Source: Paralichthys olivaceus | Taxonomy: Eukaryota > Chordata > Actinopteri > Pleuronectiformes > Paralichthyidae | DNA: 64,000 nt | Reading direction: 5' to 3' | NCBI RefSeq assembly: GCF_024713975.1 | Contig: NC_091107.1 | Span: forward strand, 18,467,501-18,531,500 | Part shown: one piece after another, positions 956 to 62,294 of the stretch | How the letters are laid out: each line of letters starts with the position of its first letter | Position numbering within the stretch: position 1 is the first letter of the stretch | Program-made: the position numbers and the translations under genes | The notes under the pieces: model-generated | What the model saw: only the letters and a program-made list of their open reading frames with translations | The model's database searches: none | What the model was told of the DNA's origin: nothing

Positions 956-1093
956 AGGGATACGATCCAGAACTTCCAGTTTTGCAGAGTCTGCACCCGG
1001 ACGTACTCTCTGAACTTCTGCCGCATGTGGTCGAAGCGCTGCCGTGTGATGGGCACGCCGGTGGCTGGTAGCTGCTGCTGACATGCACTGCAC

Positions 1094-1154
<61 letters not shown>

Positions 1155-6508: not shown

Positions 6509-6550
<42 letters not shown>

Positions 6551-9500
6551 TTACGACAGTGGACTGTAGGATGTATGTGTCTTTCACAAACTTAGTAGTA
6601 GCCAGAGGGCTGTTGGATTGCTTCACAAGCAGGCCACAACAACCACAGCCAACGTGCCCCTGAGCTAGGACCTAAACCTCAGCCTGCCTCCTCTGTCCTG
6701 TATGAAGCTTCTCTGCTGACTTTGTCTTGCTGCAGGCGAGCTGTTCTGTCTCCAGAGCAGCCTGAGGCTATATAAAAAAACATTTCCTGCCTCTCACAGT
6801 CTGGGGGACATATTAACAAGTATTAATTTATAAAAGGATTCAGGAGTCAGTCAGTAGATAATTCATTATTTTGCACTAAAACTAAATGTTTCACCACTTG
6901 GTTGCAGTGGATCCCTTTCTCTAAAGGATGACAAATGCACAGAAAATACAGCAGAAAGTTCCCTGACTGCTTGCTGAGTTCTCCTCATATGTTTTTAGAC
7001 TAAATGACTTTTAAATGTGTGTGTGTTTGTCAATGTCACCTGCGCTCTGATCTGTGGAGCACAGAATTTTTGTTCCCACCTATGCTGTATTATGGGAGGG
7101 AAAAAATAAAGCTGAATCTAAACCTTCACACAAACAGAGGCAACCTTCAAAATGATGTCAGTATATTATATATCAGAGCTGCTTCCACAGCTCATGAAAC
7201 AGAGGTCGTCCGGCCCCCCAGAGGGAGATGATACAACTGTCAAAAGCGGTTCCCTGCTTTTGAAATGGTAAATTTAAGATAATCATTTTTTGTTTGTAAA
7301 GACAGTTTGATTTTTTTTGCCCCATCACTCACTGTTGTCCTCTCAGGCACTAACTAATGTGACTTTCACTCTCACAAACACACTCAATAGAACCCATTCT
7401 AAACCAAATCCCTGGTTCAGACGATTTCATGTAGATGTACAGTAGTTGGGTGCTTGGAGCAAGAGGGGGCAAGGACATTAGCCTTGCTCTGCCAAGGATC
7501 CCAAAACCTGGATCCACTTGTTTATCCAGATCTGCTTTGGAATTGAATGTGTTCTTTCTTTGATCATCCCACATCAAATCTGTCACCAAATCCGCCTTCT
7601 TCCACCTCAAAAATATTTCCAGATTCCGGCCCTAACTCCCGTGGCAGAAACCCTCACCCACGCCTTCATCACCTCCTGCTTGGATTACTGAATACAGAAC
7701 TATGTACAAAACTCCGACGACAGAGTTCTCACCCACACTAAGCCCTGGCAGCACATCACCCCAACCCTCATTCACCTCCACTGGCTCCTGATAAAGGCCC
7801 GCATTAACTACAAACTACTTCTCACTTACAAATCTCTCCATGCCCTAGCCTCACTGTATTTAACCGACGTCATCCAAGCCTACACTCCGCTCAGAAGGTT
7901 ACGATCATCGAACTCAGGTTTGCTCTCCATCCCCAACACCAAACTCCGAACTTTTGGAGACAGAGCCTTCAGTGTCGGAGCCCCCGCCCTCTGGAACTCT
8001 CTCCCTGTCGAAATATGCAACGCTGAATCTGTCGAAATCTTCCAAAAACTCCTCAAGCACAACCTCTGCCTTTGGCCTCAGTTAATGCTCCACACTGCTG
8101 CAAAAATTTTTTATTTTTTCTTTTCTCTTCTGTCTTTTCTCTTCTATCTTGTCCTTGGGTCCCGTGACAGACGCTTTATAAATTCAAGTCATTATTATTA
8201 TTATTATTATTATCCTCAACTCGTACACAACATTTCATGGAAATCAATAAAGTAGTAGTTGCCATGGTAACAATCATGAAATCAAGATGAAAACACAATC
8301 TCCTTATCAGATATAACTATTTCCAGTCTAAAATATGTAATTTTATTTTGAATATTTAAGTATATTTCTTTTTTCTCCTCAACCATCAGGTGAGCCCAAG
8401 TGATTATCAAACACCCATGAGGTGTCTGGACCCCAAAGTTAAGAATCACTGTTTTAGAGAAGGAAACCTCCCTGCCCATCCCTTTATTTATCCTTTGCCC
8501 TATAGTTGGTGTCAGAGCCGGGGGTCACAGTTAAATACATCCTCTTTCACTTCCCCCTCCCTCAGCTCCTCCCTTCTGTTGACCCCCCTTTAACCCCCGT
8601 GGGCCAAATAATATACTGCAGACACAGCACATCCACAGAGGAGTGCCATTCGAGGTCAGATTTTTATGATCAGGAAAAACAATTAGCTGTACATTTATTT
8701 TTAAAAACTTAACACCAGACTATTTTATTTATTTAACCAATTTAATTTGGAAAATAATGAAAACGAAAAAAGTTTTTTTTCTGCAGTGTTTCTAATTTTA
8801 TAATCCCTGCAAAAGAAAAGCAATTCTCAGCGCTGACTGAAGTTCACAAACATCAAACTGTGATTAAATGATTAACTCTGCAGGACAAAGATGAGCAGCT
8901 GAAACACCATGGATGAGATAAGAAGCTAAATCTGACTGATCTGCTGCCACAACATGTGAAGATACCACTGGAAGACAGACAGAGAGTACCTGGTATATCC
9001 ATGAAATCATCCAGGTTGGGCTGCAGCGGAGTCACCCCTGGCTGCATTATATCAGCATTGCTGGTGTAGGCTGAAGAGGAAGGACAACGAGATAGAAAAA
9101 ATGTGTGTGAGTGCATCTGTCAATGTGTCACTAATTTGCTTTCTTGCAGAGAGGCAGATGAAAAGATCATTATCGATCTCTAATGTCTGTCCTTTTCATC
9201 ACAGTGACAAGACAAAGTCTGTGAAGCATTCCTCACTCTAGTCGAAGGTTAAGGGCAGAGGATGTCGCACCTCGTTTAACCCCATGAGGCAAACTCGGAT
9301 TTTTGAATATAGCCTATAAGAATAAAATTTGATTGATTAGATTGATTAATTGATTTAGAATAACCTGTTTTTCTCCATTAACTGGTTGCTGTGAACTAGC
9401 CTGCATTTAACTTTCATTGTGCTGGTGACATATTAGGTGAACTCTTTGATTTATTAACTGGTCGTTGTTTTCTGCAGCTGCGGATCAGACCTGAACAATG

Positions 9501-12500
9501 TCAATTATTCCCACCCACATGCTTCAGCTCAGACATGTTCTTGAGATGTCTCCTGTAAACTCTTGATGCCTTAGTGCCTCGGCCACTCTAACAGGTGAGT
9601 TTTCTGTTTTACGTCAGTGTTCGGGGTCATTTTCCTGCTGCATCACCAGCTGACAACCAGTGGAAGGTGGTGATGCAGCAGGTAATTATCTTCATGACCC
9701 TGACAAGAAGATAAGTAAATATGATACACAGATACATTTGCACATCAGCTCCTCAGTCATGATGCTACCTTCACTGTGCTTCATGTTAGCATTAGTGTTA
9801 TTAATAGATTTGTAAAGAGTTTATTGCTAAATGTAACTTTAAATTAAGGTCTGATCAAATTAAATAAATATAATAAAAGTTACTCTACTCAAAAAGAGTA
9901 AAAACAGAAAGTTGCTGTGTATTTGTTGACTATTTCTCGGTGGTTTAGTTGAAATTGAGGATGATAAATGTACATAGTTTACTTTTTTTGTGTCTTAACG
10001 CTGGACTACGCTAACCTCTCCTGGCTGTGATCTTACATTGAATGAACAGTTATAGAATGAGTCTGGTATCAGTTATCTCAGAAAGAAAACAAATATATTA
10101 ATAAAATAATGAATATAAATAGAAAACAAATAAAAAAAACTCCCTTAAATAGTCATGACTAAATAAGCAACAACCAAATGTATCACTGCAAAAATCTAAA
10201 GATTTTTCAGGGCTGTATGTTTGTGATTTGATCAGATTTGTTTGAATTAGAGAATTTATCACAGAACTGTATTCAAAAATACAAAATCCTGATTGGTGCC
10301 TGCAGCATTATATGTCCTCACTAAATGCAGAAGTCATTTTTTTGAAAATAATAATTTTTACAAGCTTTAAAACATAAAGTATAACTAACAGTATCACTGT
10401 ATATCCAAAGATTGGAAATTCACATCTCATTATATATCATTCTATATTGCATACATACAGTATATGTGATCTATCCTTTACATTATATTTGAGGCTGGGG
10501 GCAAAGTCACAGTGTAATGACTACTTACTGTCGTGCTGGTCGCTGTCCCAGGCGCATGGTTTTTGCGTCATGGTGAACAGGGTGTCAGAGATGTCAGACA
10601 GAAGGCAGTCCAGGTCAAACATGTGGGCCGCCACCGGAGCTGCCTCAGGCTCCTGGTACATCTGATTGTTCCATTTGTCCAGCTTGGCCTGGCCGATCTG
10701 ACCCTGCAGCACATCAGCCACAGAGAACAACAGTCAATGTCTGATCCATCCATCAGAGGGCGCCCTGCACACAGGTCTGCGAAGGCCTGAATGCAGAATA
10801 GTGCATTGATGGAATTTAGCCCCACCTGAATACATCCAGCATTAATGGTAAAAACAAAAATGTAATAATACACACCCAACTCCCTTCGTATTTAAAATGA
10901 ATGGATCCAGTTACTAAAATACAAATATCTAAACAGCAAGCCCAATTGAATCCACATACAAAATTACATACATATAGCATATTGGATCAATGTATCCATT
11001 ATCAAATCCAGCCAGCCAAACAGCAATTCAGTCCAATGGTCTGTTCTCTTCTCTAAACCCAGTTAACGAAACTCACAGAGAATGAAGCTCTTGACTCAGG
11101 TTTTTCCCTCAGTTTTGGAAGTGTGGCGCTACATTTATAGGGAAGCCCAGACGGAGGCGTGAACAGTTTTGATTACGTCTTAGCACACGACATACCCGCT
11201 GGTAATTTATTTATTCACCCCTCGATTATTTTTCTTTGCGGGAGAATATAAGTGAAAACCAGCAGAAATGAGGTAAGATTGCTGTGTGCATATATGCATG
11301 TGTGTGTCCCTGCGTGTAAATACAGTGCATGATGAAAAAGCACTTTTGACATATTGTTCAAAAACACTAGCCCCTCACAGATTCTCATTATGTCGCCTTT
11401 GTTCATTTCTTTATTTTGATGTCTCACCGTTTCAGTAAGAGCAGCGGGCCTTTGTCCCTGACCTAATTCTGGTGGCACTTTCACATTCACGTGCGGGTGA
11501 ACAGGAAGACTTGAGGCCTAAAACAAACTGCTGTTGCCTGGGTGAAGAAAAGAAAAATGACACCAAATTTCTCACTTCCGATTGGGAAAATTCAAAAACT
11601 TTTAAGGGCTTTCCTACAACTGGGTGGTGCACTGCATTAAATGTGTGGCATGAAATAAACAAATATTCTGAAATGATATTATATTGACATTAAAATATGT
11701 AGGCAGATATGAGATCTTGATGCTAAAACACTATGTCTCAATCCCTCTAGATTCCGAAATTGGGTCCATGGACCACTGCCAGGGGTCCATGAAAAGTTGC
11801 CAGAAACATTCCATGTTTTATATTATTTAATATTTGTCTTAGACATGTCAAATTATTCCGAGGGACACACCTCCGCTCTAGATAGCTGTGATGCAGTATT
11901 TGCAGGACTGCTCCAGAGAGCAAACGTCCTCGACTTCAAGAACCAGAGAATATGAGCAAGGGGATACAGGAGGGTGCTTTTAACACAAATACAAAATTTT
12001 AAAACACATGCAACAAACATACAACACAAATACACAGATCACTCAGCCTCTCCCAGAGAAAAATCAGATTCGATCCAATGACGTAAATAATAAGTCAATT
12101 ACAGAGCACAAATAGACAGGAATGGATGTATACACAGAAATTAAAAGCATTAAAGCAAGTTGTCTTGAGATGAGGTCATGAATTTGTTTTTTTCTTAAGC
12201 AATTGAAAGAGGAAGATAAGACCAGTCTGATGGAGCTGTGTATTATAACGTCCTGCATCTGAAGAAAGTTCTGGGTGTGAAAAAAGAAGGGATGCTGCAT
12301 ATGCCTGAGGTGATATGAAGAAAAATGGAACCAAACATCTGTCTACAATATGAAAGACAATTAAAGAAGATGAACTGACACCAGTGAAAAAACTTTCTAA
12401 ATTCAAAGTGATTCATATGTAAAACAATGGTCAGTTCTATTATCGAGGTGAAACCTCGACTGTAGTAGTAGATGAACCATGACTGAAAACATGTTTTGAA

Positions 12501-15500
12501 GATTTTGGCAATAATATAAGAAATAGGAATTGGCAAATAATTGTTTACACAGGAGTATCTTGGGAAATAGGTATAGCTGTAATTGCCATATCGAAATAAA
12601 CAAGAAGACAGAGACAAATTAAATGAATCTGCAAGGGGATAAATTATAATGAGCAGCAACTTTAGCTTCCAAACCATCATGAGAAGCAAAACTAATTTCC
12701 TTTAACTAAAATAGTGTATATCATGGAACATGATTTTTCTAACGGAAAATGTATTGAAATAGGGGAAAACAAAAACCGATTAAAAGCATGGGAAAGCATC
12801 AGAAATAATCATATGGTGAATTTGGATTGGTTTTATAATATTTGGTTAGTTTTATTGAGAATACAGTTCATTTGTTTCCAGAACAGTCTGGGGTTATACA
12901 AATCCTGCATAATAACAAACTGTATGGTATTTGGATTTTGTAGTCTTTGTTTTGGTTTTACATGCATTCCTGTGATATTAGGCTTTACCTGTGTGTTTGA
13001 AAAGGCTGATAAGATGTGAACTGATGTCTACCTTTGACTCTTATTCAGTGGCATGTTCATCACTTACTTAACTCAATTCAGAATAAGAGACAGTCCATCA
13101 CCAACAAAAGGAATTAACTGAAATCTATTCAGATTAATAGGAGTCATATATTGAATAAAACAATTTAAATTTTACATTCTACTGTCTCAGTCTAATAGTT
13201 TTCATAGGACAAGTGGCATTTAAGTTTTCCTGACACTGAATATAACAGAGTGATCAGTTACAAAAATCTGATTGAATTCCCCCATCAGGTCTCCAGACGA
13301 TCAGAGATGAGGACAGATGATCTGCTCTGGCTGATTCATTGATTCTCTATGTGAGGTCTACGGTTACAAATACATTAGTGGGAGAGCAATCAAGCCAGTT
13401 ACTGTTAATGTCCCCCAAAACAATCACTTCATCATGCCTCTTAATAGAATCAATAGTTTGAAATATATCATTTGCATTCTGGAGCAAAGGGAACCTATAA
13501 ATATTACCAAATTGTTTGTTACCATGAAGAATAATGCTAATGAAAAGACTTTCAAATGGCTCTACCAATCAGTAACGAGGTCTGCAGCGACCCCAACTCC
13601 TCCAGACGCCCTGTCAGCACCACACAGAACATACCGGACATGGTGAAGTGTAACTGTGGCTCTGAGGGAATCACTTTTTAAACCGAGGTTCCTGCGTTTA
13701 CGATGAGCAGTTTTCTGATTCAAAAAAGTAAAGAGGTCAGAAAAGTTGAGAGAAAAGAAAAAGTGAAGGGGGATGGGAGAGACACCTTCCAAATACATAA
13801 TCCATTATGTCAACAACACAGACAGACATGACTCACAGAGAGGAAAAGACAAAAACAACTTAAAACCAAGGCCAACCAATTGACCCACTCAGAGCTTCGT
13901 CTCCTTCAATGCAGTAATGTAATGAATATAACGGCACATTTAGGAGACTGATATTTACGAGTGTGTGAAATTTGGAGCAGCTTCATTGAATTTAAGGGAA
14001 CTGTTGCACCTTGGTGGAGGAATGTGCTCTATTGAGTGACATTCTAGTTCAGTCTGGTTCACTGTGGAGTACCGCCCAACCAACCTACATTGGTATCTAT
14101 AGAGCTGTAGCCTGGCTACAGATCAATAGTAATACTCAATCACTATCAAAGTACAAACTTCTGATTGGTTGAACGGTCCACTCCCCATGTTGAAGCACAG
14201 AGTTCCTGCTACAGCCTTTATTTATAACCTGGTTCAGGAGCCTGGGAGGACTTTGTTTCACTCTTAAAATGATTGACTAAGTTTTAATATGAGGACCGGC
14301 AGTGTAGTAGTAGTTTACAATAGTCTCTAAAAGATGTGATCACCAAAAGCTGTTAAAAGGCAACATTTAGTGTAAGATTATAAAGCTATTGTCCCTGCCT
14401 AAATCAGAATGTAAAAGATTTTATGAGGAAAAACACACTAACTTTATTTAGCCAATTCAATTTCAAATGAGGCTTTGATAGCAGCAAAGTGTTATAAAGT
14501 AAATGACTTAAACAAACATTACAATAACAACTTCTAGGATTTCAAGCGAATATTGCAGGTGTTGTTTTTACAGCCACTGCAAATAATCGGTTCAGTCAAA
14601 TGCGAGATAACACTTTGGGAACACGGAGCATAAAAGCAGCTCCAGGAATCTTTGACCTTTCAGATATGTGCTGAGATATGTGCTGACATGGGTCTTTTCA
14701 TGTGCTGCACAGTACACAAACAATTTGATCTGCAGACACACACAGACAGTCGTGCTCTTAACTGTGACCGCAGTTCAAATGTGGGCGTCCAGTGCAACAG
14801 AAAGGTGAAAGAATAGTAATAGTGGGGCCGTGATTTGCGAAGGCACGAGTATACGATCATGAATGAGGTGCTTCGCCACAGTCCCTCCCCTCTCTTTGCT
14901 TTTCTCCTATTTTTCCTCTTGATCTTTTGTTTGTTTTTCGCCTCAGTGACGTCAAACTCACGGGCCCACCGCTGAACTAGGTCAGATTTGATGACATTAA
15001 ATTCTGCAGCTATTTCACCTGAATACAGATGAAGCCTGATAAGATGTGAGAGAGGTATTGTCGCTGCAGGAAATGCGTCAGTTGACTACAAATGGTGGAC
15101 CAAGTCGTTTTGCACGTTTCTGTTTCTATTAAGTGTTTTTTCCCTCTCTAGTTAATCACGGGAGGCTATTGGCTGTTTGGACTTTGATGATCATAAAAAC
15201 ATAAAACAATGCCAGCAGGTTAACACCCACGCGCACACACACACACACAGAATCTGGGCCTATTAGCCAAATTCAGCCTTCAAGGATGAAAATTATTGTT
15301 TCTCTTCATTTGTGTTTTTTTCATGATAGGAGTTGATAATAATGAGACTTGACATGTGTGTTGTCATACCTCTTGCAGCATTGATAGAATATCATCCTTC
15401 TTTTTCTGAAGCTGCAAAGAGAGAGCAAGAGAAACTGTTTCATTGATGACAAAGCAAAGAGACGTGGTAGAAGCAGGTAATGTTTTCCCTGTGTTTGTTT

Positions 15501-18500
15501 TGTGTGTTGACATGCTAACAACAGTGCAACTGGCACTGATCATGTCATTATTTTTGCAGGAGTTTGGACCCAAACTAAAGTACAAAACAAATTCAAATTT
15601 GAGCTGCATCCGGCTGGGGACACGAATGTTTGCAGCTAATATGTGCAACATTTTACAGCTATCAATCCAAAATGACGGTGGCCCAGAGAGCTCAACGCAA
15701 TGCAACTTCAGAAAACACATGCAAAACATCATCAATCTGTCAACACATGCACTGCAACTAGAAAGCGCAAAGCAAATACTCTCAACACATCTGAAGTATT
15801 TCCAGGGGACACTAAAAAGGGATGAAAATTGCCTGTGCTGTTTGTTGCCATTATTTGAGTCTCAAGAACTTACCGATGTTGACTATCCCGGACCCTCAGT
15901 GTTAAAAATTATGAATTGTGTAAAAGAAAATGCTTATTTTAACAATTTATATTGTTTTTCTGATAAATGCTGTTAACTTTGCATTAGCCCTGTGTATAAT
16001 GTTAGACTACCAATTCAAGTAATCGGACGAAATACACTTCATTGAGAAACAGACTAACGTCATGTTAAGGAGCTGTTCTTTATCTTTATCAGATCAACAA
16101 CGCCACAGTAAAGACAATACATGTTGATCTGAAAAAGACTTGACGTTTGCCTGTTTCTTAAATAATTCAGTGTTAGGGTTTGTCGTGCATTATGTGTTAG
16201 CATGTGCTTGTGTTGTCAAATTGATGAAGATTTTTTCTCCCTTCATAGTGTCTATTTGCATGTGTTTCTTCTCAAGTTGTAATGTGTTGAGCTCTCAGGG
16301 CCACCATACAAGAGTTGTTGAGACATTACAACACATATATCAATCAATGTCTTTATGGTTGTTTTGCTAATCTAGTTAATTTGCAAATATTTGTTAGGGT
16401 ACATGAATATAATAAAATTTTGATATTTTACAGGAAAAATCCATCCCTACAGTCAGAGGACTACATCTTGTATGTATATCAGTACAAAATGTTATATCAA
16501 TCCAATCCCCAGAGCCACGAGCATACAGCTCAAAATATAAATTGAGTTCTCTCACCCTCTTCTTATAGTAAATCCTCCACTTATGATACTCCCTGATCAC
16601 CACCTCAATCCTTCTCTTCCAGTAGCTGCCCTCCAACACGATCGCCTGTTGATGTGGAACACAAATATTAAAATCACACACGTCCAGGGTCATTAGCTTG
16701 TAATACAAACATTTAGCCTCAGCAATATACATCTAAAATAATATGCATTAATAATGTAATCAAAAAGAACCCATCTTATACTACAAGACTTATTTAAAAA
16801 TTCCTAAAAAAACAGAGGACTCACTTGAGGCTTTCGATGGGCATCGCCCTCAGAGCCCTCTAGAGGGGTGACGAAGCCACACACTGAGCTCTTCTTCCTC
16901 TCCCCATCTAAAGATACAGCAGATAAATAGCAAGAAAATCAGAAAAAATAATTTAGATTTATTATAAAAAAAGTGGATCCCTTAGTTTGGAATCACTAGT
17001 TTGTGTGGATTTATTTATTTATTTATTTATTTTATTCCAATTTCTGTTGCTTTTGGTGTAACGTCATTGTCCATCATGAGGAAGGGGAAGAGTGGCGGCC
17101 TCACACTGAATGTACCACCCTCTCCAGATGGCATTGTTCAGACGAATCTTATCCCTCCACAGCAGCCGCAGACCTTTAAAAGACTTCCACTTCGGTGAGA
17201 CGATCTTACCACTGCAACAGAGGGAGAGAAGTCTTTGAAGAATATCAACGTAAAAATGATGATGCTGATGATTTGTTTGTGGGAAATGTGCAGTGTTCAA
17301 TATTTTTTTTCTCTTCATGATCGGCGGCACTGACAAATGACAAAATACTCTTTGGAGAAAAAAATGACACAGTGGAAAATCTCAGTGGCCACATCTGTTA
17401 GAAACCTGTCCTGATTTTGACTAATAGTGTCCAATCAGCTTGTTCACCAGTGCACTGCAAACATCTTGCACTATTTTTCCAGTGTCCCTCATCCTGTTGA
17501 GTGCTGAGAGGAGGCCCCATGATGTGAGGTGCTTGGGAAGTTGCTAGGAAGCCAGAGGGAGTCATTTTCAACATGCTCTTAATGGAGTGTCATCGCTGTC
17601 AGGATGAGAACTCATTAACACCAGTCCAGTTAATGACAAATAACTGCGCTATACCTGCTCCACATTATAGTTCCACATCAACAGTCCTTAAGGGGAACGT
17701 GGTCTGATTTTATCGGAAACCTTCTTTCTTCAGGGGTTATTGTGCAACTGTCATGAAACTACTGATACAAAGTGGCTTGAAAGAAAAATATCTTCTCTGC
17801 ATCAGTTGTTGTTGGGAACTCGAACTGAAAGATGTTTTTAAAGAGTAAGAGCAGGAGATTTTTTTGCAAGGGTGCATGTGTGCTCCAGATATGCACCTAA
17901 ATGCAAACTAGCATGGTTCATCTTTCCATTAACACAGTTTATATGTAATAACCTGAAATAAGCACAGTGTTAAGTCAAAGCAAAGGGCCAACTAAAATAA
18001 ATGGAAGGCATCATTTCAGGATCTTCTCTGCTTTCCCTCAGTTACACTGTAGTCTGCCCGGTGCTGCCAACTAGTATCAAAGTCCAGTTTTCACTTAAGA
18101 TTTTCCAAGCTATTGCACAAGAGGCTGCAAAAACCTCTCTTTTCCAACAAAACCACTCAGTGGGCTGAAAACTGAAATTTAACTTTACAGTTTTAAAAGG
18201 GAAATGCATGTGCAGAAATAAAATTCCTGGCATAGTTGAAGGTGGAGCTCTCTCTGTGTCTGTGGCTCTTAAAAATACATCTAGAGAGGAGATCCCTGCA
18301 CGGGGAAAGATCATATTCTTATAAATTATACCCTGCTGGGTTATTTTTCTAAATAAGTTGCTGCAAACAAGAAACCGCGGCCATGTGGTCCGTCATTGTG
18401 AAAACCAGCAGCTTGAAAATGAATGCCATCTAACCAAGGTGTTGCTATGAAGGTGCTTGAAGCATCATGTCACTCTTGTTCAGGGTGACCACCACTGTCT

Positions 18501-19519
18501 GCATGCCAAGCTTCAGCAGATTCTACTGCAGAACTTGTTAGAAAATTAAAGAGAAAGTCAGCTCAGTTTTCATTATGGCCCTCGTAAATTGCTGTTTTTA
18601 AATATTATTTTTTAATAAATCATACAAAGTAATCATAATTGTCGCACCTCTCTTGTTCAGGATGCCCCCCACTACCTGTATGTCAGGTTTTACTGCAGAC
18701 AAATTTAGGAAATTAAAGGGAAATCAACTTAATTTTCATTATGGTACTGATAAATTGCTCAAATTAAATATCACTAAAAACATTTTGTCGAAGAATCTCA
18801 CCTCACTCTTGTCCATGGTGACCACCACTGGCTGCATGTCAAGTTTCAAGTATTTGTAATGTAGAAATGTTAAGGAAACTAAAGGCAACATCCGCTCAGT
18901 TGTCATTATGGCATTCATAACTTTCCCATTACCATAAACAAGAGGGAGTTGAAAATACCATTGTGAAGATGTAACAATCCACTTCATTACACTTGTTTAT
19001 GTGCAGAAATTAAAATCTGTTTTACTTTTTTATCAAGCGTCCACAACAAGTGACATTAAACTTTGTTTTTCGTCCTTGGTGAAACATGGAGCCGTGAACA
19101 CGCTCACTAAACCACTGAAAGTAATGGCTGCAGTTCCAGGAGAAGAAGCGGCTGAACTGAGCTCAGGCAGGTTTTCACGTGGTTCCAGAGAAGGCAGCAG
19201 GGACCCACCTGTAGGCCAGGGACATGCACTCAAACAGGCGGGTCAGAGTGGGGTCGATGCTCAGGCTGCCGGAGCGGTAGCGGTAGGTCTGACACCACGT
19301 CCTGTTCACCGTGTCGAAGTCGTACCTCAGCGACTCGCCACTTTCCCTCCTGCGCGGTTCGGGGTCGGTGTGCGGCGACGACACCATGAAGTGTCCGCTG
19401 TGGATGACCTGGATTAAGGGGAAGGAGCGGGTGGACGGCGCCGCCCGAGCCGGGCCCACCTCCGGCTCCGGGTCCGACTCCCATGGGTCGTGGAGCTGGC
19501 TCTGTCCTTTCCCCGCCAT
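956..19519 (-). CDS. mlxipl: Carbohydrate-response element-binding protein (MLX-interacting protein-like), 3' end outside window
   Basis: Glucose-responsive bHLH-leucine zipper factor that pairs with MLX on carbohydrate-response elements. Fourteen coding exons in transcription order: 19209-19519, 17105-17211, 16825-16907, 16556-16645, 15370-15411, 10529-10703, 8990-9070, 5214-5912, 5036-5109, 3662-3929, 2591-2694, 2313-2435, 1962-2089, 956-1087. All have GT/AG borders and agreeing phases, giving 805 codons plus 2 nt. Mondo conserved regions are visible: HSGHFMVSSPH (residues 40-50), GKIVSPKWKSFKGL (from 105), YWKRRIEVVIREYHKWRIYY (exon 4) and LSDISDTLFTMTQ (exon 6). The bHLH begins THISAEQKRRFNIK (exon 12), the zipper is in exon 13, and QQQLPATGVPIT opens the C-terminal domain. 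CLSDISDTLFTMTQ-type and CGFVTPLEG segments fit ChREBP better than MondoA. The start at 19519 has A at -3 and G at +4; an in-frame ATG lies directly before it. The remaining C-terminus (about 80 aa in relatives) lies left of base 1. The paralogue call is fairly sure; the family is certain. Confidence 0.95.
1096..1152. repeat. (AC)28 microsatellite abutting an mlxipl splice acceptor
   Basis: Uninterrupted dinucleotide tract of 57 bp. On the mlxipl sense strand it reads (TG)n and ends 8 nt before the first base of exon 14 (1087), where a polypyrimidine tract would normally sit. Confidence 0.97.
1886..1919. repeat. (CA)n microsatellite in mlxipl intron 13
   Basis: CA repeat with one GC interruption, about 40 bp downstream of the exon 13 donor on the gene strand. 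Confidence 0.9.
3384..3396 (+). promoter_or_regulatory. Candidate CTCF motif in mlxipl intron 10
   Basis: CCACCAGGGGGCG agrees with the CTCF core consensus at every defined base. It lies in AT-rich intron between exons 3662-3929 and 2591-2694. Inferred from sequence only; binding is untested. Confidence 0.4.
4495..4575 (+). repeat. Interspersed repeat tail, copy 1 of 3
   Basis: Degenerate match to two other places in this window (9243-9350 and 33930-34025). Shared words are caccttg, tgaggcaaa, gaatatgggctata and a final A-rich end. The layout resembles the 3' tail of a common teleost retroposon; the family name is not certain. Confidence 0.5.
6288..6470 (+). repeat. Common fish interspersed repeat fragment
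   Basis: Contains accaaggaggttatgttttc, a run of tttg units, then tcagcaggatta, caaaaactact, tttccatgaaat and tggtgcggatccggctcag. This word order recurs in teleost intergenic DNA from general knowledge. Lies in mlxipl intron 7. Confidence 0.55.
6512..6546. repeat. (AC)n microsatellite in mlxipl intron 7
   Basis: Perfect CA/AC tract of about 35 bp. Confidence 0.95.
7500..8212 (+). mobile_element. L2/Rex1-like LINE 3' fragment (degenerate)
   Basis: Plus-strand translation, with frame breaks, gives the end of a LINE reverse transcriptase: HIKSVTKSAFFHLKNISRFR near 7570, ETLTHAFITSCLDY near 7645, then after breaks FGDRAFSVGAPALWNSLPVE (7950-8012) and FQKLLKHNL. These match the C-terminal half of L2-clade LINE polyproteins. 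The copy ends in a short tail (gacgctttataaattcaag) and an (ATT)n microsatellite at 8193-8212, a usual L2 ending. It is antisense to mlxipl, inside intron 7, truncated at the 5' end and not functional. Confidence 0.8.
9243..9350 (+). repeat. Interspersed repeat tail, copy 2 of 3
   Basis: Best preserved of three copies: ggttaagggcagaggatgtc, tgaggcaaac, gaatatagcctata, aataaaatttgattgatt. Sits in mlxipl intron 6 just upstream of exon 7 on the gene strand. Confidence 0.6.
9621..9703. other. Long hairpin (inverted repeat) in mlxipl intron 6
   Basis: Arms 9634-9648 and 9668-9682 are perfectly complementary over 15 bp (CCTGCTGCATCACCA), with a 19-nt loop. A second stem pairs 9621-9630 with 9694-9703 across an unequal internal loop (3 versus 11 nt). 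Total about 83 nt. The size is like a small-RNA precursor or a tiny inverted-repeat element; the function is unknown. Confidence 0.6.
11000..13199. other. Large mlxipl intron 5 (10704-15369), left part
   Basis: AT-rich non-coding sequence. Short ORFs here have no family resemblance and biased Phe/Ile/Tyr composition. Apart from the LINE remnant at 13200-13660 I see no feature; a fragment near 11755-11810 (ggtccatgga, then aggggtccatga) looks like a common dispersed repeat. Confidence 0.4.
13200..13660 (-). mobile_element. LINE endonuclease (APE) domain remnant
   Basis: Minus-strand translation in pieces: DRASGGVGVAADL (about 13575-13615), then EPFESLFISIILHG and FGNIYRFPLL, then VIVLGDINSNWLD (13395-13440), and further on TDHSVIFSVRKT near 13215-13255. 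This is the order of an apurinic-like LINE endonuclease (GNIYR, GDxN, DHS). Frameshifts and stops separate the parts. It is on the same strand as mlxipl, in intron 5. The reverse transcriptase expected downstream was not recognised. Confidence 0.7.
15231..15248. repeat. Short (CA)n tract
   Basis: gcgcacacacacacacac in mlxipl intron 5. Confidence 0.8.
15677..16305. mobile_element. Inverted-repeat element (MITE-like), 629 bp, in mlxipl intron 4
   Basis: The left end (ggtggcccagagagctcaac, then acttcagaaaacacatgcaaa) is matched in reverse complement by the right end (ggtggccctgagagctcaac, then acttgagaagaaacacatgc). Arms are about 50 bp or more with some mismatches. A 177-codon plus-strand ORF (15443-15976) overlaps this element and has no family likeness. 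No clear target-site duplication. Probably a non-autonomous DNA transposon. Confidence 0.65.
18465..18928. repeat. Three diverged tandem units in mlxipl intron 1
   Basis: Units at about 18465-18593, 18642-18761 and 18798-18928. Each starts ctcttgtycaggrtg and accaccactg-like words followed by ctgcatg and caagyttca, and each ends ttcattatgg with a short tail. Spacing is 177 then 156 bp. Homology is clear but diverged. Confidence 0.7.
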
Positions 19520-19897
19520 CATGCGTAGTTCCCTCACTGTGGACTTCTCCTGCAGACTGTGAACTTTCTCCTCAGATGACTCCCCCCTCCTCCTCCTCCT
19601 CCCTCCGCCCCCCCCTGTTTTCTCCTGATGTTCCAGCTCTGCTCACATCTGTCAGCTGAGACACATCTGTCCACCTCAGCAGCTGCACACCTCTGAGCTC
19701 TGCTGTTGTAACAGCAGATCATTCTGTCAACTTCCTGAGGACAATAATCATTAACAGACCCCTGCTGAGGAGGTCCTCAGAAAAGATAACAGCCATACAT
19801 CTGGACTCTAATACAGGCTCATCATCAATTCCAATGAAATATTATTAGAGCATTTCCATATGTTGTTGTCTCTACTTATTCTAAATTCCATTCAGGA
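19520..19897 (-). promoter_or_regulatory. 5' flank / promoter region of mlxipl
   Basis: Directly upstream of the mlxipl start. It has a CT-rich strand (ctcctcctcctcctccctcc near 19588-19612) and lies next to a GC-rich exon 1, as expected for a vertebrate promoter. No TATA box or carbohydrate-response element pair was recognised. The transcription start is not determinable from sequence alone. Confidence 0.4.
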
Positions 19898-20100
19898 TCT
19901 ATCTATCTATCTGTCTATCTATCTCTCTCTCTCTATCTATCTATCTATCTGTTTATCTGTCACTCTCTCTCTCTATCTATCTATATACAGTATCTATCTA
20001 TCTATATCTATCTATCTATCTATCTATCTGTCTGTCTATCTATCTGTCTATCTATCTATCTGTTTATCTATTTATCTCTATATCAATTTCTTTATCTATT
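19898..20100. repeat. (TATC)n imperfect microsatellite
   Basis: About 200 bp of tatc/tctg/tctc units. It directly follows the 3' end of the adjacent LINE fragment and may have grown from its tail. Confidence 0.95.
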
Positions 20101-33929: not shown

Positions 33930-34025
33930 CTCTGGTAGTTAAGGTCAGAGGATGTTACACCTTGTTAAGCCTTGTGAGGCCCCTCGTGATTTGTGAATAT
34001 AGGCTATTTTAATACAATTGTATTG
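33930..34025 (+). repeat. Interspersed repeat tail, copy 3 of 3
   Basis: gttaaggtcagaggatgtta, caccttgttaag, gtgaggc, tgtgaatataggctat. Preceded from about 33880 by a matching upstream part of the same family (ctctctgaggtttctgcctg). Confidence 0.6.
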
Positions 34026-34431
34026 ACAAATAGAGATTTTGATGTTTGAATTTCATAGTGCCCATAAATGCAGAAGATCTGTTTTTATTTGTTAAAGTTT
34101 TTTTTAACAAAGGCAGGTGTGTTTTAATTTATGGCATCTGTCTGTCACGTTGATAACAACTTCAATCCAATTTTTTGATGCAAGCTCAGGACCTGCACTG
34201 TAATCTATTTTCCAGGACATGATCCTGGATAACACATGGAGTTGTTTAGCATTCAGTCTGGCAAAAGTCCTAACTTGTACCCCCTACAAACAAAGTCATT
34301 CTTGATGTATGAAATCATTTTGAAATTTGACCTGAAAATCTTTTGAGTCAAAGTTAAAAGTTTGTGTGAAATAAATAATATTGTACTACTATATGTACTA
34401 CTATCTTCCAGCAGAGTGCAGTGTTCTTGCA

Positions 34432-34432
34432 T

Positions 34433-34496
<64 letters not shown>

Positions 34497-34505
34497 GAGA
34501 GAGAG
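34432..34505. repeat. Compound (TG)n(GA)n microsatellite
   Basis: About 26 bp of TG followed by about 48 bp of GA with one GG break, in the dhx33-p2rx1 spacer. Confidence 0.97.
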
Positions 34506-35066
34506 GAGGGGAACAAGAGGAAGTAAGGTTGGAGCTTATCAGTACTAGTCTTTACCCAGAGGCTGGTTTAATACCAGGCTTCAGTATCATTCCCAAATGA
34601 AGTCATTTTTTTATTCAATCAGTTTCTCCCAGTTCTTTGCCATGTGTTTATGGTGCAAGTTCATATGTTTAATTATGTTAATTTAGTCAGCAGCAAATGG
34701 GATTTCTGATATTGTTACTATATTTGTCTCTTTCTGTCCTTTCAGTTGTCACTATAGGTGAAATGTTAAAGAGGATCTTGTTCGCTCTTTACAGAGCATC
34801 ACTGTTTTCGAAAGTAGAATCCACGTGCTCCACCTACATGTGCGTGTTTGATTCATACAAGAGAACATCATCAGCGCCCCTCCTCAATGTGCACAAAGGT
34901 TCGACAGCCCTTTATTGCTGCTTGCAGATTTTATGAGGTGCTGTATCTCTGAGGCGTTTAGGGTCATGTACATCTTCAGTTTTGTCAGAATTTTACAACA
35001 AAAAAATTGCAGGTGATCAATGTCTGAAGTCTAATTTACTGATTAATTTAATCTGGCTCCATGGAT

Positions 35067-35132
35067 CACAACACAACACAACACAACACAACATAGCATA
35101 ACCTAACATAGCATAACCTCACATAATATAAT
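35067..35132. repeat. Simple tandem repeats (acaac)n and cataacct-type
   Basis: Five-base units acaac followed by about 40 bp of aacctaacatagcat-like units. They abut the 28-bp direct repeat at 35133. Confidence 0.8.
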
Positions 35133-36311
35133 ATAGTATGATATGATTGTTGTGAATTTCAAAACATTTCTGCTACCAAATACTATATAATCAATTTTGG
35201 CAATGTCTTGTTTATTCTCATTCTTTTACTAACATCATGCAACTAAACTTAGGTTCTGTCTCAGCTCCACTGAAGGTGATGATGCACAATGATGAGTAAC
35301 CAGCAAACAACTACCTCTGCATTTTTACCAGCAGGTTAGATCATATATCAAAATAGAAAGTAAAGGGACCCAAGTACCTCCTCTGAGGAACTCAGCAAGA
35401 TACATTTTCTGTTTCAGAATGACTTCCATTGAAAATGACTTATTGTCTGCTGCTGGTGAGCTAAACATGACTTACCCTAACATTTAGCTTAGCAATGAGA
35501 ATACTGTGGTTAGTGAGGTCAAAGGCTTCAATCCATGAGCACTGCTCCATCTAGTTATATGTGTAACCAATGATGGGTGACATTCTGGATAGACTGGTCT
35601 AGTGTTTACTCTGTGTTGTGTAATTTCTTTATAAAATGGTGAAACACGTTCCCAGTTCTGAGGAATTTTATTCTTCTCTATAGTATTCGGAGCCAGCCTC
35701 GTTACCTGACTGGAACCACACCGTCACACCTCTAACACTGGAAGTCTCTCCCACACAAAACCACAGATGTACAAAACAACACCCCTAACATCACTACAAC
35801 GCCACCCAATGGAGGCACTCTGGGGTACATATATAGAGAGAGCAAGTGGAAATCACCAGATAAACTCTGTTACAATATGTAAACAATGATCATTGATGAT
35901 CAATGATCACTTACCATCTTTGGGTAAGTGCTCTAGTCCCACTGAGGAGACATCATTCAAAATATGACAAACTGATGTATTGGTAAACATTTCTAACATG
36001 TTTTATCCCTCATTATACTAGTAACAATGTTGCACATTAAATTGATACTGTCTACTTGGATAGGAGATCACAGACTTTCTACTTTGTTGATGATTTCTTT
36101 TTGATGTAAGATACATTTTCAGACAACAATGAAAATACATCTGAAAGCAGCTCTTTGACGCATCAAACGTCTCAAACCATCATCAATCCATGGTGCGCTA
36201 CTGTCCTTTACAGGCCTCTGGAGTGGAGCCTATTTATTATTAGCATCATCACGTAATTAACCAGTTTTAAATCTTCCATTCCCATAGTATGATATGATTG
36301 TTGTGAATTTC
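35133..36311. repeat. Duplicated 1.12 kb block, copy 1, with 28-bp flanking direct repeats
   Basis: Bases 35161-36282 (1122 bp) are about 99% identical to 37669-38792. The block is bordered on both sides by the same 28 bp, at 35133-35160 and 36284-36311 (starts atagtatgatatg, ends gtgaatttc). That pattern looks like an insertion with a long target-site duplication. The block has no terminal inverted repeats, poly(A) tail or coding sequence. Confidence 0.9.
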
Positions 36312-37668
36312 CTTTAAAATTTGTGCTCTTGTATGTGCTTTATTCTATCAATGTTATTTTGAATTGAACAGATAAGGTGTTCAATTTATAGTACTTTAAC
36401 CTTCATATAACAAAAAATATGGAAATCCTTTCTTCCTGTATCATCCACCATAAACAATGTAAAGGCAGCATTATCATCACTGACATTAACTACTTTTAAT
36501 GTCCATGAACATGACAGACCAACGTTTATATTTATAATACTTTCCTGTCGGCCTTGAGGGGCTCTACTACTCAATATTGAGTTCACTTACATTTGTAATT
36601 GACCTTCTGCAGTTTTAGAGACAGTTTGCACTGCAGCTACATAGCAAGTGTTCACTTAAAAATAAAAAATAAAAATACAGTTTAGTTAACCTATGTCAGC
36701 TAATGCTAATATATCCACAAGGCAGGAGGCTAAAATTACTTGAAGGCCTAAAGGTAAAATTAGAATGTATTTCATTTAGAATCAGTGTCTTTGGGTACAG
36801 CTTCTTTTGACAGATATTTTCATGAAGCCTTATCGTAACAAATGCGTAAATTAAAAAGAAAATACATATCATTGTGTGCAGTGTGATTCACTTACTTGAT
36901 TTGTTTTAACGAGGCGTTTTCAATCTTCCTTAATTTTTGTCCCTAAAAAAATCATATCATTTTGAACAGCACTTATGATAATTATAATATTTGTCAAATG
37001 TAAACTTTAACATGGTTCAACAATAATATTATAACTAATTGGAATTTTTTTCCCCAGAAAACACTATTTGTCACTGCAAAAGTAACACATCATTTAAAGT
37101 GACTGTATTAGTGATGACACAGGCAAGCTATTTTAGGCTCTAAAGGAATCTATTTGTATTAAGTATTTAGACTATACTAGATTTGACATATTGTTATCAT
37201 CCTCTCCTGCCCCCAGTCAGTGTGTCAACAGTTCTGATTTTAATCAACAGTATTTATATCTGTGGCCAGCGGGAATATGGTGTCCTCAATCAGCTCAACA
37301 TAACATCTGTTAAATTAGCCCCCACAGTGAGCCATGATAATCGTTTATGTATCTCACAGCCACATTGGATCAGAGAAAATAATGAAGAGCTCATCTGGCT
37401 GCTCTGTTCTGGGCCATTGGAATTTTTTAGATGTTTCTCAGCAGCACTTGACCGTGTAGTTAGGCCGTACTCCAGGTGTGACTGAACAAGTCACTGAGCA
37501 ACTTCAATCCAAACAGAAAATGGAACACATGCAGTACTTCCCTGAAGTCGCAGTTCTCTTTCTCATGAAAACAATGTGATGAGTCAGATCAAACTAAGAC
37601 AATAGATCTTCTGATTTAACACAGTAATTTGGTCTCAGTGATCTGCTCAACTCATCACTGGAGTCAGC

Positions 37669-38792
37669 AAAACATTTCTGCTACCAAATACTATATAATC
37701 AATTTTGGCAATGTCTTGTTTATTCTCATTCTTTTACTAACATCATGCAACTAAACTTAGGTTCTGTCTCAGCTCCACTGACGGTGATGATGCACAATGA
37801 TGAGTAACCAGCAAACAACTACCTCTGCATTTTTACCAGCAGGTTAGATCATATATCAAAATAGAAAGTAAAGGGACCCAAGTACCTCCTCTGAGGAACT
37901 CAGCAAGATACATTTTCTGTTTCAGAATGACTTCCATTGAAAATGACTTATTGTCTGCTGCTGGTGAGCTAAACATGACTTACCCTAACATTTAGCTTAG
38001 CAATGAGAATACTGTGGTTAGTGAGGTCAAAAGCTTCATGCTCCATGAGCACTGCTCCATCTAGTTATATGTGTAACCAATGATGGGTGACATTCTGGAT
38101 AGACTGGTCTAGTGTTTACTCTGTGTTGTGTAATTTCTTTATAAAATGGTGAAACACGTTCCCAGTTCCGAGGAATTTTATTCTTCTCTATAGTGTTCGG
38201 AGCCAGCCTCGTTACCTGACTGGAACCACACCGTCACACCTCTAACACAGGAAGTCTCTCCCACACAAAACCACAGATGTACAAAACAACACCCCTAACA
38301 TCACTACAGCGCCACCCAATGGAGGCACTCTGGGGTACATATATAGAGAGAGCAAGTGGAAATCACCAGATAAACTCTGTTACAATATGTAAACAATGAT
38401 CATTGATGATCAATGATCACTTACCATCTTTGGGTAAGTGCTCTAGTCCCACTGAGGAGACATCAATCAAAATATGACAAACTGATGTATTGGTAAACAT
38501 TTCAAACATGTTTTATCCCTCATTATACTAGTAACAATGTTGCACATTAAATTGATACTGTCTACTTGGATAGGAGATCACAGACTTTCTACTTTGTTGA
38601 TGATTTCTTTTTGATGTAAGATACATTTTCAGACAACAATGAAAATACATTTGAAAGCAGCTCTTTGACGCATCAAACGTCTCAAACCATCATCAATCCA
38701 TGGTGTGCTACTGTCCTTTACAGGCCTCTGGAGTGGAGCCTATTTATTATTAGCATCATCACGTAATTAACCAGTTTTAAATCTTCCATTCC
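37669..38792. repeat. Duplicated 1.12 kb block, copy 2 (probable source)
   Basis: 1124 bp, direct orientation relative to copy 1, differing by roughly ten substitutions and one small indel near 38040. It has no direct repeats at its own edges, so it is the likelier original. Contains a perfect 11-bp-arm palindrome (38397-38419). Confidence 0.9.
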
Positions 38793-41370
38793 TACAATGA
38801 CTTCTTGTATATCAGTGAAATTATAGCCCCTACATCCCATTGCAACTCACTCTGCCGGGGAGCACAACTCATGTGTGTCAGTGAAAACATGATCAATATA
38901 GATCACTAACACAACTAATGGTCGTAGAAACTCTCATAGGTTGAGCTACAACCAGGGTCAAATTTCAAGCATCCACTAACCGACTAGCCTGGGTTGACAG
39001 TATGAAAAATTAATCTGTGGCCATATGTCAATGTCAGTACTCATTATGTCTTTCTGTACGTATCTTAAATGTATTACTGAACATCAAATGCAAACCCATC
39101 CTTCGACAGTCAGTTCAGAATCATGATAAGTAGAGTCCATTGTTTCTGATTACAGCATGGATACTGTTCGAGGAGCAGATCTGGTAATCTCAGCAATTAT
39201 CGCTTAGTAAACTCAATGACAAAGATGCAGTTTTCTTATTTAGACATGTAAATAAATCAAACAGAAATAGTTACTAAAATCACACTTTAAGATGATGATC
39301 TCTAGTTGCTCATCTTCACTGATATAGATTTCTGTGATTTCATTTCTTGGCAGAAGACAAGATTGTCTGTCTGTCTTTAAAGTGAAAAAGTTTTACAACA
39401 GTTTTCTCATAGGCTTATTCTCCTCCTGATACTTGTTTTCTGAATGTACTCAGTATCCATATTAAAGCCACGTAGTCCCAGATTGCTTTAGAGCATTTGT
39501 CACACCTTAATTTCTTATTCCATCCAATCCCTGCTTACAGTTCATTATGTTGTTTTTAAATGACTTTAACTTAGTTTCAGTCTCCTTGTATCCCCCACTT
39601 GTCTTTTCAAACCTACATCTTGGGTGAATTCAAAGCTGGTCTTTAAGCTCCTGCATCTCTATTAATTCTATCCAGTCTCCACCCAGTTCCTTCCATGATC
39701 ACTTGAATAAAGCACTTCAAGTTTTCCTGCTCCAGAAATAACATGTCTTTGTCAAACATTCCCTGCTGTTTCAATAACTGGAAGAGGACACTTGGTATTG
39801 CCACAGAATCATCATCGTCTAATAACTAGTGTTAGCATTATAGCCAAAGATTGGTTCTAAAGACGGATGACAAGCCTACTCTCCAAAAGTGAAGCCAGAG
39901 TGCCTCGATCGTCACCTGGTGACTGACTGCAGTACATGTTGTACATCCCTCTTCGTCCATGTTTGGGACAGGATGTGGACCAAATGAAAAAGTCAAAATT
40001 TGCACGTCAAATAAAAGTTTCCCAAAAATGGTTTCTGTAATTAAAAGTTGTTCCAATCACACTGATGTATTTTAAAGTGGATTTTTTTCCATAGCATTTG
40101 GTTTTAATTAGATATTTGATGCTTCGGTTGGACCTTGCTACCACGGCTCCATCATGCAATCACTACTGTGGAGATTCTGACTGCAGTTGGTTGCGCTGGA
40201 ATCGGCTCTGTAACTGGAGAGAGGCATGAAGTGGAGATGCATTCTCCAACTTTATAAACAGTTTATGATTATAGCAGTCCAAACTAAGATGGTCAATACT
40301 ATAAACATAAAGCTCAAAACACAGCTGTGCGTGAGTACCTAGAGCTGTGTGCATGACTCTGTAGACTTTCAGGGTGTGTCCAAACTCATGTCCTATATAG
40401 TGCACTACACTTGTTTTCAGCCATTTGAATTGAGTCATAATTGTGTATTTCTTATCACTGCATCAGCCGAGTGGCCCCAGAAAATTCACAGTTGGACAAA
40501 AAGTGGTATCCATGGTTTGTATGCTGAGGGTCCTTGACTGAGTGAACAAGTGAGCATTGTCAGACACAGTGATTGACACAGTTTTGTTGTCACTTGCAAT
40601 CCCACCAAAGTCTAGACGTGGCTGTTTTGAGAAAATGTCCAATGTATATTGACGCCTCCTTTGGAAAAGGCTTAGCCAGATCGAGATTTGGATTTTTGAT
40701 TCCAACAGAAGATGTTCCATTCACTAATCCCTGGAGATTAGACAACACTGCACACAAGTGAGGAAAAAACATTTTTTCACATAGAAAACCTTTTATGTAA
40801 TGTAGTTTTTATATGTAAACGATTTCTTACTGAAATGGTAGAAATGCAATGGTTTACTCATATTGCAACAACAGTGCGTTTGCCACCTCCTTTCCTCTAA
40901 ATAGAGTGAAAATTAGAAATGCAAAGCACCTCAGTATATGAAAGGGAGAGTGTGGAATTGTGGTGGTTGTGTGAATCACAAAAATTGTTTCTCTGTGTGC
41001 TTCGACGCAGAAATATGATAAAACATAAGAAGGCTTAATGTCCTCAAATGGTGACACGAGAGCAGGCAAACAAGCTGAGATGTGACGTATGCAGTTGTGT
41101 GTTTATGTTGGGCTTACATTTTTCTATCTCTGCCGTTCATGCAGGAAGAGAGTGTCAGTGGAAGAGATAAGGTTTGATTGTTCATGAAGAGGAGGGATGT
41201 CCGGTGTATGTGTGGCAGCTATTGACTTATTTCAAATTGCCAACAAGTCAAGACCGATCCCCCCAAAAAAATATTTCTGCTGATTTATTGTGCAACTATT
41301 CAATGAAAGAAAAGGAGGTGGTGAAAAGTCAGAAGAGGCAGTGATGAGGTGGAGCTGATGCACCCATGAG
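38793..41370. other. Spacer upstream of p2rx1
   Basis: No gene recognised. A piece near 40375-40430 (cctatatagtgcactaca) resembles a widespread fish/vertebrate MITE end. Otherwise unique AT-rich sequence. Confidence 0.35.
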
Positions 41371-59900: not shown

Positions 59901-62294
59901 ATGTAATGTGTGTTTAGAGCTTGTGGGAAATGTCGACCTCTGACAGAGGCTTCACACCGACCACAAACAGGTCATCTGATTAAATCAGTCTCTTTGTAAG
60001 ATCAGCTTTTATTCAATCATGTGTTGACACAGTTTGGCATGACTGAAGCTTTTCCCGTGAGCACTCCAGTTAAATCTGCTGTTAACAGATAACATCTGGC
60101 TCATACCTAGTGTCTGATCTGCTTTAACAGTAAACAGTGGCATTGTCATGTACACTGAGGTTACTGTGCAGCAGGCAATTCTCTGTCCAACATCCATGCA
60201 CAACTCCTGATTCAGTGAGGTGCACGTTTAAACCATTCCTTGTTTACTGTTAGTTATGAGCAAAGACACAAATCAATTAATATATAGGCTTAGAAAATAA
60301 AATGACATCAGTGTGTTTATTGTTAGACAGTGGCCATTGACAGAACAGGGGTCCTCAGTCGAGTTTCCTTTTTGTCATGTTCATTTGCATTGTTACTTCT
60401 ACTCGATGCCATTCCTCACTAAATCTGTTTTTACAGTACAGAATGAACAGAAAGTTGGGTCTGGACGTTTTTCCTTCACGTATGACAAACACAGCAGGAG
60501 AATTTTTGGGTCAGATGCGTTCACAACAACAGGAAAATGTCCGATTCAGGCGATTTGTGGGGCCTGGGTAGAGCCTACAGGAGGCAGGACATGATGTATA
60601 CATCTACTGCAGAGCTTTTGTTTACAGCACATTAAAACCAATATCACCAAAACCTCTTAAATATTAGGTCCTTCAAATTTGAAATCTTGGTTGGTGTTGT
60701 CTGTGTGTATAGTTCCTCTTCTCCATCCTGAGATATTTGTATTCTTTTCTTTTTAACACAGTTGCATTGTATTCTCCGGAGTAGGTTCTGCAGCATTCTC
60801 ACATGGCTTCACTCAGACATTCTATTTGCAGGAGGAACTCCAGAGAGAATCCGGAGCACATGACTCAATGCTTTCTCACATATTGCCCCTCCAGTTAGAA
60901 GATTATCTGGAGGTCAGTGCATGTCTGAAAGCAGCTTTAAGCGGACCCAACTATGTCTAATGGTTGTGAAGTTGTAAATATGTGTTTGGCTCCTCATTTA
61001 CATCCTGGGATATTTGTTCATCATCATCAACATGGCCACTCACTTGCTGTGAATACTTTCGGATGATGCCAGAAGCAAATGATGTGCACATACAGCTGCT
61101 ACGGAATATTTCAGGATATTATCTGGACTTACATGCATGTCTGAAAGCAGCTTGAGACACAACCTTGTCCTCAAACAAGACTCTCGGTCTCTGTGTTTGT
61201 CTCTGTGTTGCTTGTTATACTGTCACATTTATGGTGAACACAATGTTGTAGCTGTTGAGGAACAGCTACGACTCAGTGCTGCAGACTGTGTCAGTGTTGA
61301 CACAACAGTGGACGCAGGTCACTGGGCTGTTTCTTACCACTGCAGAGAGGCTGGGGACAAACTTGACTGAATTCTGGATGTCTTCCTCCGTCACCTCCAC
61401 CACAGAGCAGTGCTCCTCCTCCAGAGGCAAGGGGTCACTGCCTCCCTGGGTCACCCACTGGTCCATCTAAACACACACACACACATAAGTTGACTACACA
61501 ATTAGCATTTTGACCAAAAAATTCTAACTCAGTTAATGATCACAACTGCTACTCCTTCACAATGATGATGATTCTAAGAGTTCACTTTCCTTCGTCATCA
61601 TCCACCCAGTAGTTTACTGCTTCTCCTTATGAGCCGGTCCCAGCTGCGTCAGGCTGCCAGCGAACTATATCACAGTACCGACACATGGTGGCGATATAGA
61701 CAAACATCGTGCTCATTTTTGTAGATATGGGCAATTGAGAGTTGATAATTGGGTTTGAACATGAAAAACCTTCTTGCTGTGGAGAGAAGCTGTGAGGTGA
61801 TGGTGCTCATCACTGCACCACCACGCCGCCCTCTTTAATATCAATCAATCTGCTGGTGCTTTCCTGTCTTTGTGCAAGAGCGAGGTCTTTCATTTTTAGA
61901 GCAAGACATATTAATTTCAGGTGAACAAATTAAATGCCCCTTCCTCTTTTGTCGGTGTGTTCGCTTGACTTCTTTGAGAGACCTGTACAGGCGGTTACAA
62001 GGCCTGGGCGATATTCCTTCAAATCAATATCATTGAGGAAATTATTAACCAAATTAACTGACCCTAGTGGTTACTCACCATGTTCATGCACTCGGAAAAA
62101 AAATCAACGCACAGAAGAAAAAAATCAAAGGAAGGAGAAGAAATCCAAGAGAAGATGTTTAACCTGCGGATAGGATCGGCGTGAGGGGAGTTGAAGCTGG
62201 AGCGCAGGAAATCTGAGTATAAGTGTTCAGTTTGAGCACAAGCAGAGAAAATCTAAGCACATGCAGAGGCAATTTGAGTGTAAGTTCAGGGTTC

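Follow-up and report, generated by a model that had tools for sequence, protein, structure and literature searches.

A 1.12-kb block of DNA occurs twice, in direct orientation, in the genome of Paralichthys olivaceus, and the scar that surrounds the left copy makes it quite likely that the pair is a germline repair-mediated duplication and not the product of a mobile element. A copy of local sequence would have been joined into a break with ends staggered by ∼28 nt and subsequently filled in. The block lies within the window, the whole stretch of 64,000 nucleotides that was analyzed (contig NC_091107.1, which is contig 15, or C15, of the 25 in the 588-Mb assembly; positions 18,467,501 to 18,531,500 of the forward strand). 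The initial annotation had proposed a templated insertion in place of a mobile element; the templated insertion is supported, while the block itself turns out to carry an interspersed repeat of ∼313 bp that predates the copying.

Anatomy of the duplicated block

The two copies are separated by 1,386 bp and match at 1,111 of 1,122 aligned columns, the remainder consisting of 11 mismatches, with one 2-nt indel in addition. The BLAST identity of the left and right copies, in which the indel is counted, is 98.8%, and the ∼99% identity, direct orientation, and 1.4-kb spacing that had been described are thereby borne out. A direct repeat of 28 bp, identical at 28 of 28 positions, borders the left copy alone, whereas the right copy is bare, with no flanking direct repeat like the 28-mer found around it (Table 1). 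At the left border, one C is common to acceptor and donor; at the right border, an extra C, here termed filler, separates the copy from the second 28-mer. The sequence shared at the two junctions therefore amounts to 1 and 0 nt, that is, no microhomology of 2 nt or more.

The earlier description of the block as lacking inverted ends and a tail also holds. Inverted repeats of at least 20 bp are absent from positions 34000-40000, and the junctions contain no poly(A) or poly(T) tail of at least 5 nt at the block ends and no simple-repeat tail on either strand. The block starts with AAAA, which the donor has too. The longest stop-to-stop frame that overlaps the left copy encodes 79 amino acids. 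The window contains 577 frames of at least 45 amino acids; 10 long frames gave no match in Pfam, and one frame gave none among PDB sequences. An origin from a structured RNA or a tRNA was rejected, as the window has no Rfam match at the gathering threshold and no tRNA. A near-perfect palindrome with the core ATCATTGATGATCAATGAT is present inside the duplicated block, at 35887-35909 and 38397-38419.

Table 1. Features of the 1.12-kb and 472-bp duplications. Coordinates are window positions unless a prefix is given.
Feature	Coordinates	Strand or orientation	Basis or remark
Imperfect 5-bp (CACAA/AACAT) and 15-bp tandem repeats abutting the target site	35067..35135	.	Tandem Repeats Finder
Target-site duplication (28 bp), left copy	35133..35160	+	Only one partner elsewhere in the genome
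Acceptor copy of block, derived, 1,122 bp	35161..36282	+	Alignment and genome search; polarity from one-sided duplication and nested-repeat sites
Filler C at right junction	36283..36283	+	Junction alignment
Target-site duplication (28 bp), right copy	36284..36311	+	Exact repeat of left 28-mer
Spacer between acceptor and donor	36312..37668	.	36284-37668 has one genome match
Donor copy of block, 1,124 bp, without flanking repeat	37669..38792	+	Alignment
Nested ∼313-bp interspersed repeat in acceptor	35562..35874	.	Partial genome matches and alignment; ends by eye
Nested ∼313-bp interspersed repeat in donor	38072..38384	.	Same alignment and genome search
472-bp event, acceptor	C15:18665474-18665944 = L025:3974-4444	direct	Self-alignment
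472-bp event, acceptor including borders	C15:18665440-18665974 = L025:3940-4474		
472-bp event, donor	C15:18668226-18668697 = L025:6726-7197	direct	Self-alignment

Rarity of the block and of its border repeat

The initial annotation had held that two genomic hits would support a local templated insertion and that many would support a new mobile element. The full block has two full-length matches in the 588-Mb genome, both in the window, and no dispersed full-length family was recovered, with the counts of repeats in this search being lower bounds. The 28-mer is likewise present at two places genome-wide (588 Mb) at up to three mismatches, both in the window. Tandem expansion is ruled out, as the copies lie apart with single-copy sequence between them.

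Leaving the block itself aside, no exact direct repeat that survives complexity filtering in the window is longer than the 28-mer, and the only other pair of at least 20 bp that passes the filter is a 20-mer at 60918/61134. Of 4,000 intervals of 400-1,200 bp drawn at random from the surrounding DNA, none was bordered by a direct repeat with a score of at least 10; the 28-bp border repeat exceeds chance expectation.

Two other bracketed stretches were observed in the region. The perfect 20-bp direct repeat encloses 196 bp (60918-61153), of which no full copy is present within 264 kb, and this site may mark a further insertion that duplicated its target. At 89793-90709 (L014, window numbering continued rightward), 875 bp are enclosed by a perfect direct repeat of 21 bp. 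The 875-bp stretch holds inverted segments that match other sites in the region and probably represents a repeat element whose target duplication is long.

A nested repeat within the block

Beyond the two full-length matches, the genome contains at least 11 further matches to the block, which are partial, 76-92% identical, and all confined to block positions 395-721. Alignment of six of these 11 matches with both copies delimits, by eye, a nested element of ∼313 bp that starts with TGTAAC and ends with GTTACA. Flanking duplications of 4-5 bp, also judged by eye, accompany the window copy, which has a 5-bp ATATG on each side, and three other copies. From these sequence features, the nested repeat appears to be MITE-like. 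It precedes the block duplication in age because it is present in both blocks; the block is longer than the element, whose other copies occur without the rest of the block.

Direction of copying

The available sequence supports the left copy as acceptor and the right copy as donor. The principal reason for right-to-left copying is that the target duplication surrounds the left copy alone, adjoining it within 1 nt at either border. Copying in the opposite direction was rejected, as the ends of the right copy would need to coincide by chance, within 1 nt, with both 28-mers.

A weaker line of evidence is the polarity of differences within the nested repeat, in which four of the 11 mismatches fall and for which six outside copies are available for comparison. 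The right-copy base is present in five of the six outside copies at 35659, in all six at 35685, and in five at 35799, the sixth copy having a third base. A third base is carried by every outside copy at 35739, and this site is uninformative. The informative differences, three sites only and all in the nested repeat, are derived on the left in 3/3 cases, which further counters left-to-right copying. Together, the one-sided target duplication and these sites uphold the earlier proposal that the right-hand locus was the source.

A second local duplication

A duplication with similar anatomy is present ∼160 kb away. Self-comparison of 304 contiguous kb including the window produced 109 self-matches, and a filter for proximal pairs (at least 35 bp, at least 75% identity, and a gap of 20-20,000) retained 23 pairs. 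Ten of these were dropped because they overlapped more than three matches, none was dropped for low complexity, and 13 were kept. Identity of at least 90% is found in two of the 23 proximal pairs in the 304 kb, namely the 1.12-kb block and a 472-bp event. The other 11 kept pairs (75-88% identical) show no convincing target duplication, and two of them are only microsatellite-like or within-array matches.

The copies of the 472-bp event have 466 identities, 5 mismatches, and 1 gap position in 472 columns (98.7%), and the donor lies 2,281 bp to the right (∼2.3 kb downstream). The left copy alone is bordered by a direct repeat of 29 bp that contains one mismatch (L025:3940-3968 and 4446-4474), with fillers of CACAC (5 nt) at the left and A (1 nt) at the right; exact-match scoring misses this duplication because of the mismatch and the filler. 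The junctions share 0 and 0 nt, and the left edge reads ATTT/AAAT. The repeat end followed by the filler reads GTGT-CTC-ACAC, and the CACAC filler may have been templated by snap-back. Genome-wide, the 472-bp sequence has two full-length matches and 39 partial matches, the latter all in its first 156 bases.

The anatomy of the 1.12-kb event, consisting of a target duplication on the left copy only, filler, no microhomology, and a downstream donor, is shared by the 472-bp event. In the two events together, fillers of 1, 5, and 1 nt occupy three of the four junctions, and no junction shares more than 1 nt. That two of two recent local duplications have target duplications of near-equal length is a lead and not a result, the sample being one region with two events in which older events with decayed target duplications are invisible to the test.

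Proposed mechanism

A double-strand break with staggered ends would have formed beside the microsatellite, through nicks on opposite strands ∼28 nt apart, and the tandem repeats next to the target site are possibly the fragile sequence that caused it. Both protruding ends would have been made double-stranded, giving rise to the 28-bp repeats; a staggered break with filled-in ends would account for the target duplication in this manner. Before closure, a 1.12-kb copy of the sequence 1.4 kb rightward would have been placed between the ends; it would have been synthesized on one of the broken ends or captured as a fragment of a sister chromatid or homologue. Closure by end joining would then have left the extra C without creating microhomology of 2 nt or more. 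The junction sequences resemble the outcome of ligating a fragment that already existed, or of joining ends once copying was complete, more than that of annealing, and strand annealing onto the donor fits poorly because microhomology is absent. The ∼1% divergence of the copies could have accumulated by mutation after the event, or could be allelic if the homologue served as template.

Parts of this scheme have been described in other systems. In mouse and human cells, fill-in of break overhangs with end joining generates short tandem duplications; overhang duplication requires end joining and, at 3' overhangs, also CST-guided Pol alpha-primase (PMC8355091, PMC5730883). Pace et al. put forward a model of synthesis-dependent strand annealing in which a sequence nearby serves as template for a broken end (PMC2671141).

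The two events might also reflect a recurrent germline process in which a nearly fixed stagger of 28-29 nt is filled in and closed around copies of 0.5-1.1 kb taken from 1-3 kb away, without microhomology. With n=2, this generalization is tentative and, on balance, unlikely. If true, the constancy of the stagger would suggest that the paired nicks come from a single defined source, for which a nucleotide excision repair patch is a speculative candidate. The excision patch in nucleotide excision repair is ∼24-32 nt.

Alternative explanations

The alternative that survives best, although improbable, is replication template switching (MMBIR/FoSTeS), in which the polymerase leaves the fork at the end of the 28-mer, copies 1.12 kb located ∼2.5 kb ahead, and returns 28 bp behind its point of exit. 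The product would be the same, and no two-ended staggered break would be needed. Template switching is usually primed by microhomology, yet neither event has 2 nt or more at its junctions (1/0 nt in the first and 0/0 nt in the second), an absence with which microhomology-free switching is still compatible. With its local donor on the same strand and a short step back on return, template switching accounts just as well for the anatomy of the two events, and cis templated insertions in tumours have been modelled in this way (PMC10482687). It offers no reason for lengths of 28 and 29 nt arising twice.

Target-primed reverse transcription of a local RNA by a LINE-type enzyme, with a target duplication and no tail, is very unlikely. 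This route does leave a target duplication, and the ATTT/AAAT edge of the 472-bp event is near the LINE-1 preference named in PMC5110952, but TAAT/ATAG, found at the left edge of the 1.12-kb event, is at odds with it. The 3' tail by which such retrocopies are recognized, whether poly(A) or simple repeat, is absent on either strand. Tails also separate the groups in the primate survey, with 0/39 proximal copies carrying one versus 17/29 copies of the other group (PMC2671141).

An assembly artefact, with one copy being a misplaced haplotig or a misjoin, is scarcely credible. A difference of ∼1% could also be shown by two alleles, but the copies reside in different flanks around a spacer with one genome match, a misjoin does not create a 28-bp target duplication within 1 nt of one copy, and a similar signature recurs at the second locus.

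The initial annotation had used the length of the 28-bp repeat as an argument against transposons, and this argument is not sufficient, since a target duplication of ∼28 bp by itself does not exclude transposition or retrotransposition. Both are disfavoured because there is no dispersed family, no terminal repeats, and no tail. A transposon with an unusually long target duplication, the least probable reading of all, would explain the 28-bp flanking direct repeat and is refuted by copy number unless the search missed dispersed copies: the only two full-length matches are 1.4 kb apart and the right one is bare, inverted ends are absent, dispersed copies with the same ends were not found in the genome search, and the other copies of the nested repeat lack the rest of the block. 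An LTR reading is ruled out on the same grounds of copy number, absent inverted ends, and bare right copy.

Significance

Repair-mediated duplications of this type add unique sequence to genomes, one local copy each, and can readily be taken for unknown transposons. The direction of copying and the geometry of the break can be read from the target duplication, which also provides clues to the joining pathway. Two scars, of 28 and 29 bp, in 304 kb suggest that the rate of such events and their break geometry could be measured assembly-wide. Should the length range turn out to be narrow, this would be a pointer to the lesion underlying germline templated insertions, a matter that, to our knowledge, is not settled.

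Comparison with known systems

Repair-mediated duplications (RDs) were described by Pace, Sen, Batzer and Feschotte in 2009 in primates, other mammals, chicken, and zebrafish, with 80 counted in zebrafish (PMC2671141). In that survey, the inspected proximal (<5 kb) RDs of primates show microhomology in 31/39 cases, a target duplication in 6/39, and a tail in 0/39. These proximal RDs are at most 619 bp in size, and target duplications in the survey are 4-21 nt; the authors state that longer RDs could exceed the observed size range, which is hence a range and not a definition (PMC2671141).

Consistent with these RDs, the 1.12-kb event has a donor within 5 kb on the same chromosome, no poly(A) or poly(T) tail of at least 5 nt, exactly one donor and one acceptor genome-wide, and breakpoint scars in the form of a 1-nt filler and a 28-nt target duplication. 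In contrast with the proximal RDs, its 1,122 bp exceed the 619 bp reported, while the 472-bp event is within range. The target duplications of 28 and 29 nt are longer than the 4-21 nt of the survey, and microhomology of 2 nt or more is absent from both events, as opposed to 31/39. The combination of filler and target duplication without microhomology or deletion is found in 0/39 proximal RDs and in 5/12 interchromosomal tail-less RDs (PMC2671141). No report of a narrow 28-29-nt size class of target duplications was found in the literature listings searched, although one may still be in print.

Other systems resemble the 1.12-kb event in part. The cis reciprocal duplications (rDups) of BRCA1-deficient tumours also consist of a small segment pasted elsewhere with duplication of the sequence at the site, but they are somatic, have gap segments of 100 bp to 100 kb, and mostly draw on long-range donors (PMC10482687). 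Short tandem duplications generated by overhang fill-in share the duplicated overhang and the near-blunt joining, whereas the duplicates described are adjacent, without a kb-scale templated insert between them (PMC8355091, PMC5730883). Templated sequence insertion polymorphisms (TSIPs) are likewise copied genomic sequences inserted at a break or nick; class 1 has a target duplication and poly(A), class 2 has no target duplication, and the donors are distant (PMC5110952). The 1.12-kb event fits neither of these TSIP classes because it combines a target duplication without a tail with a local donor. It is best placed in the described class of repair-mediated duplications, which it matches in topology and context.
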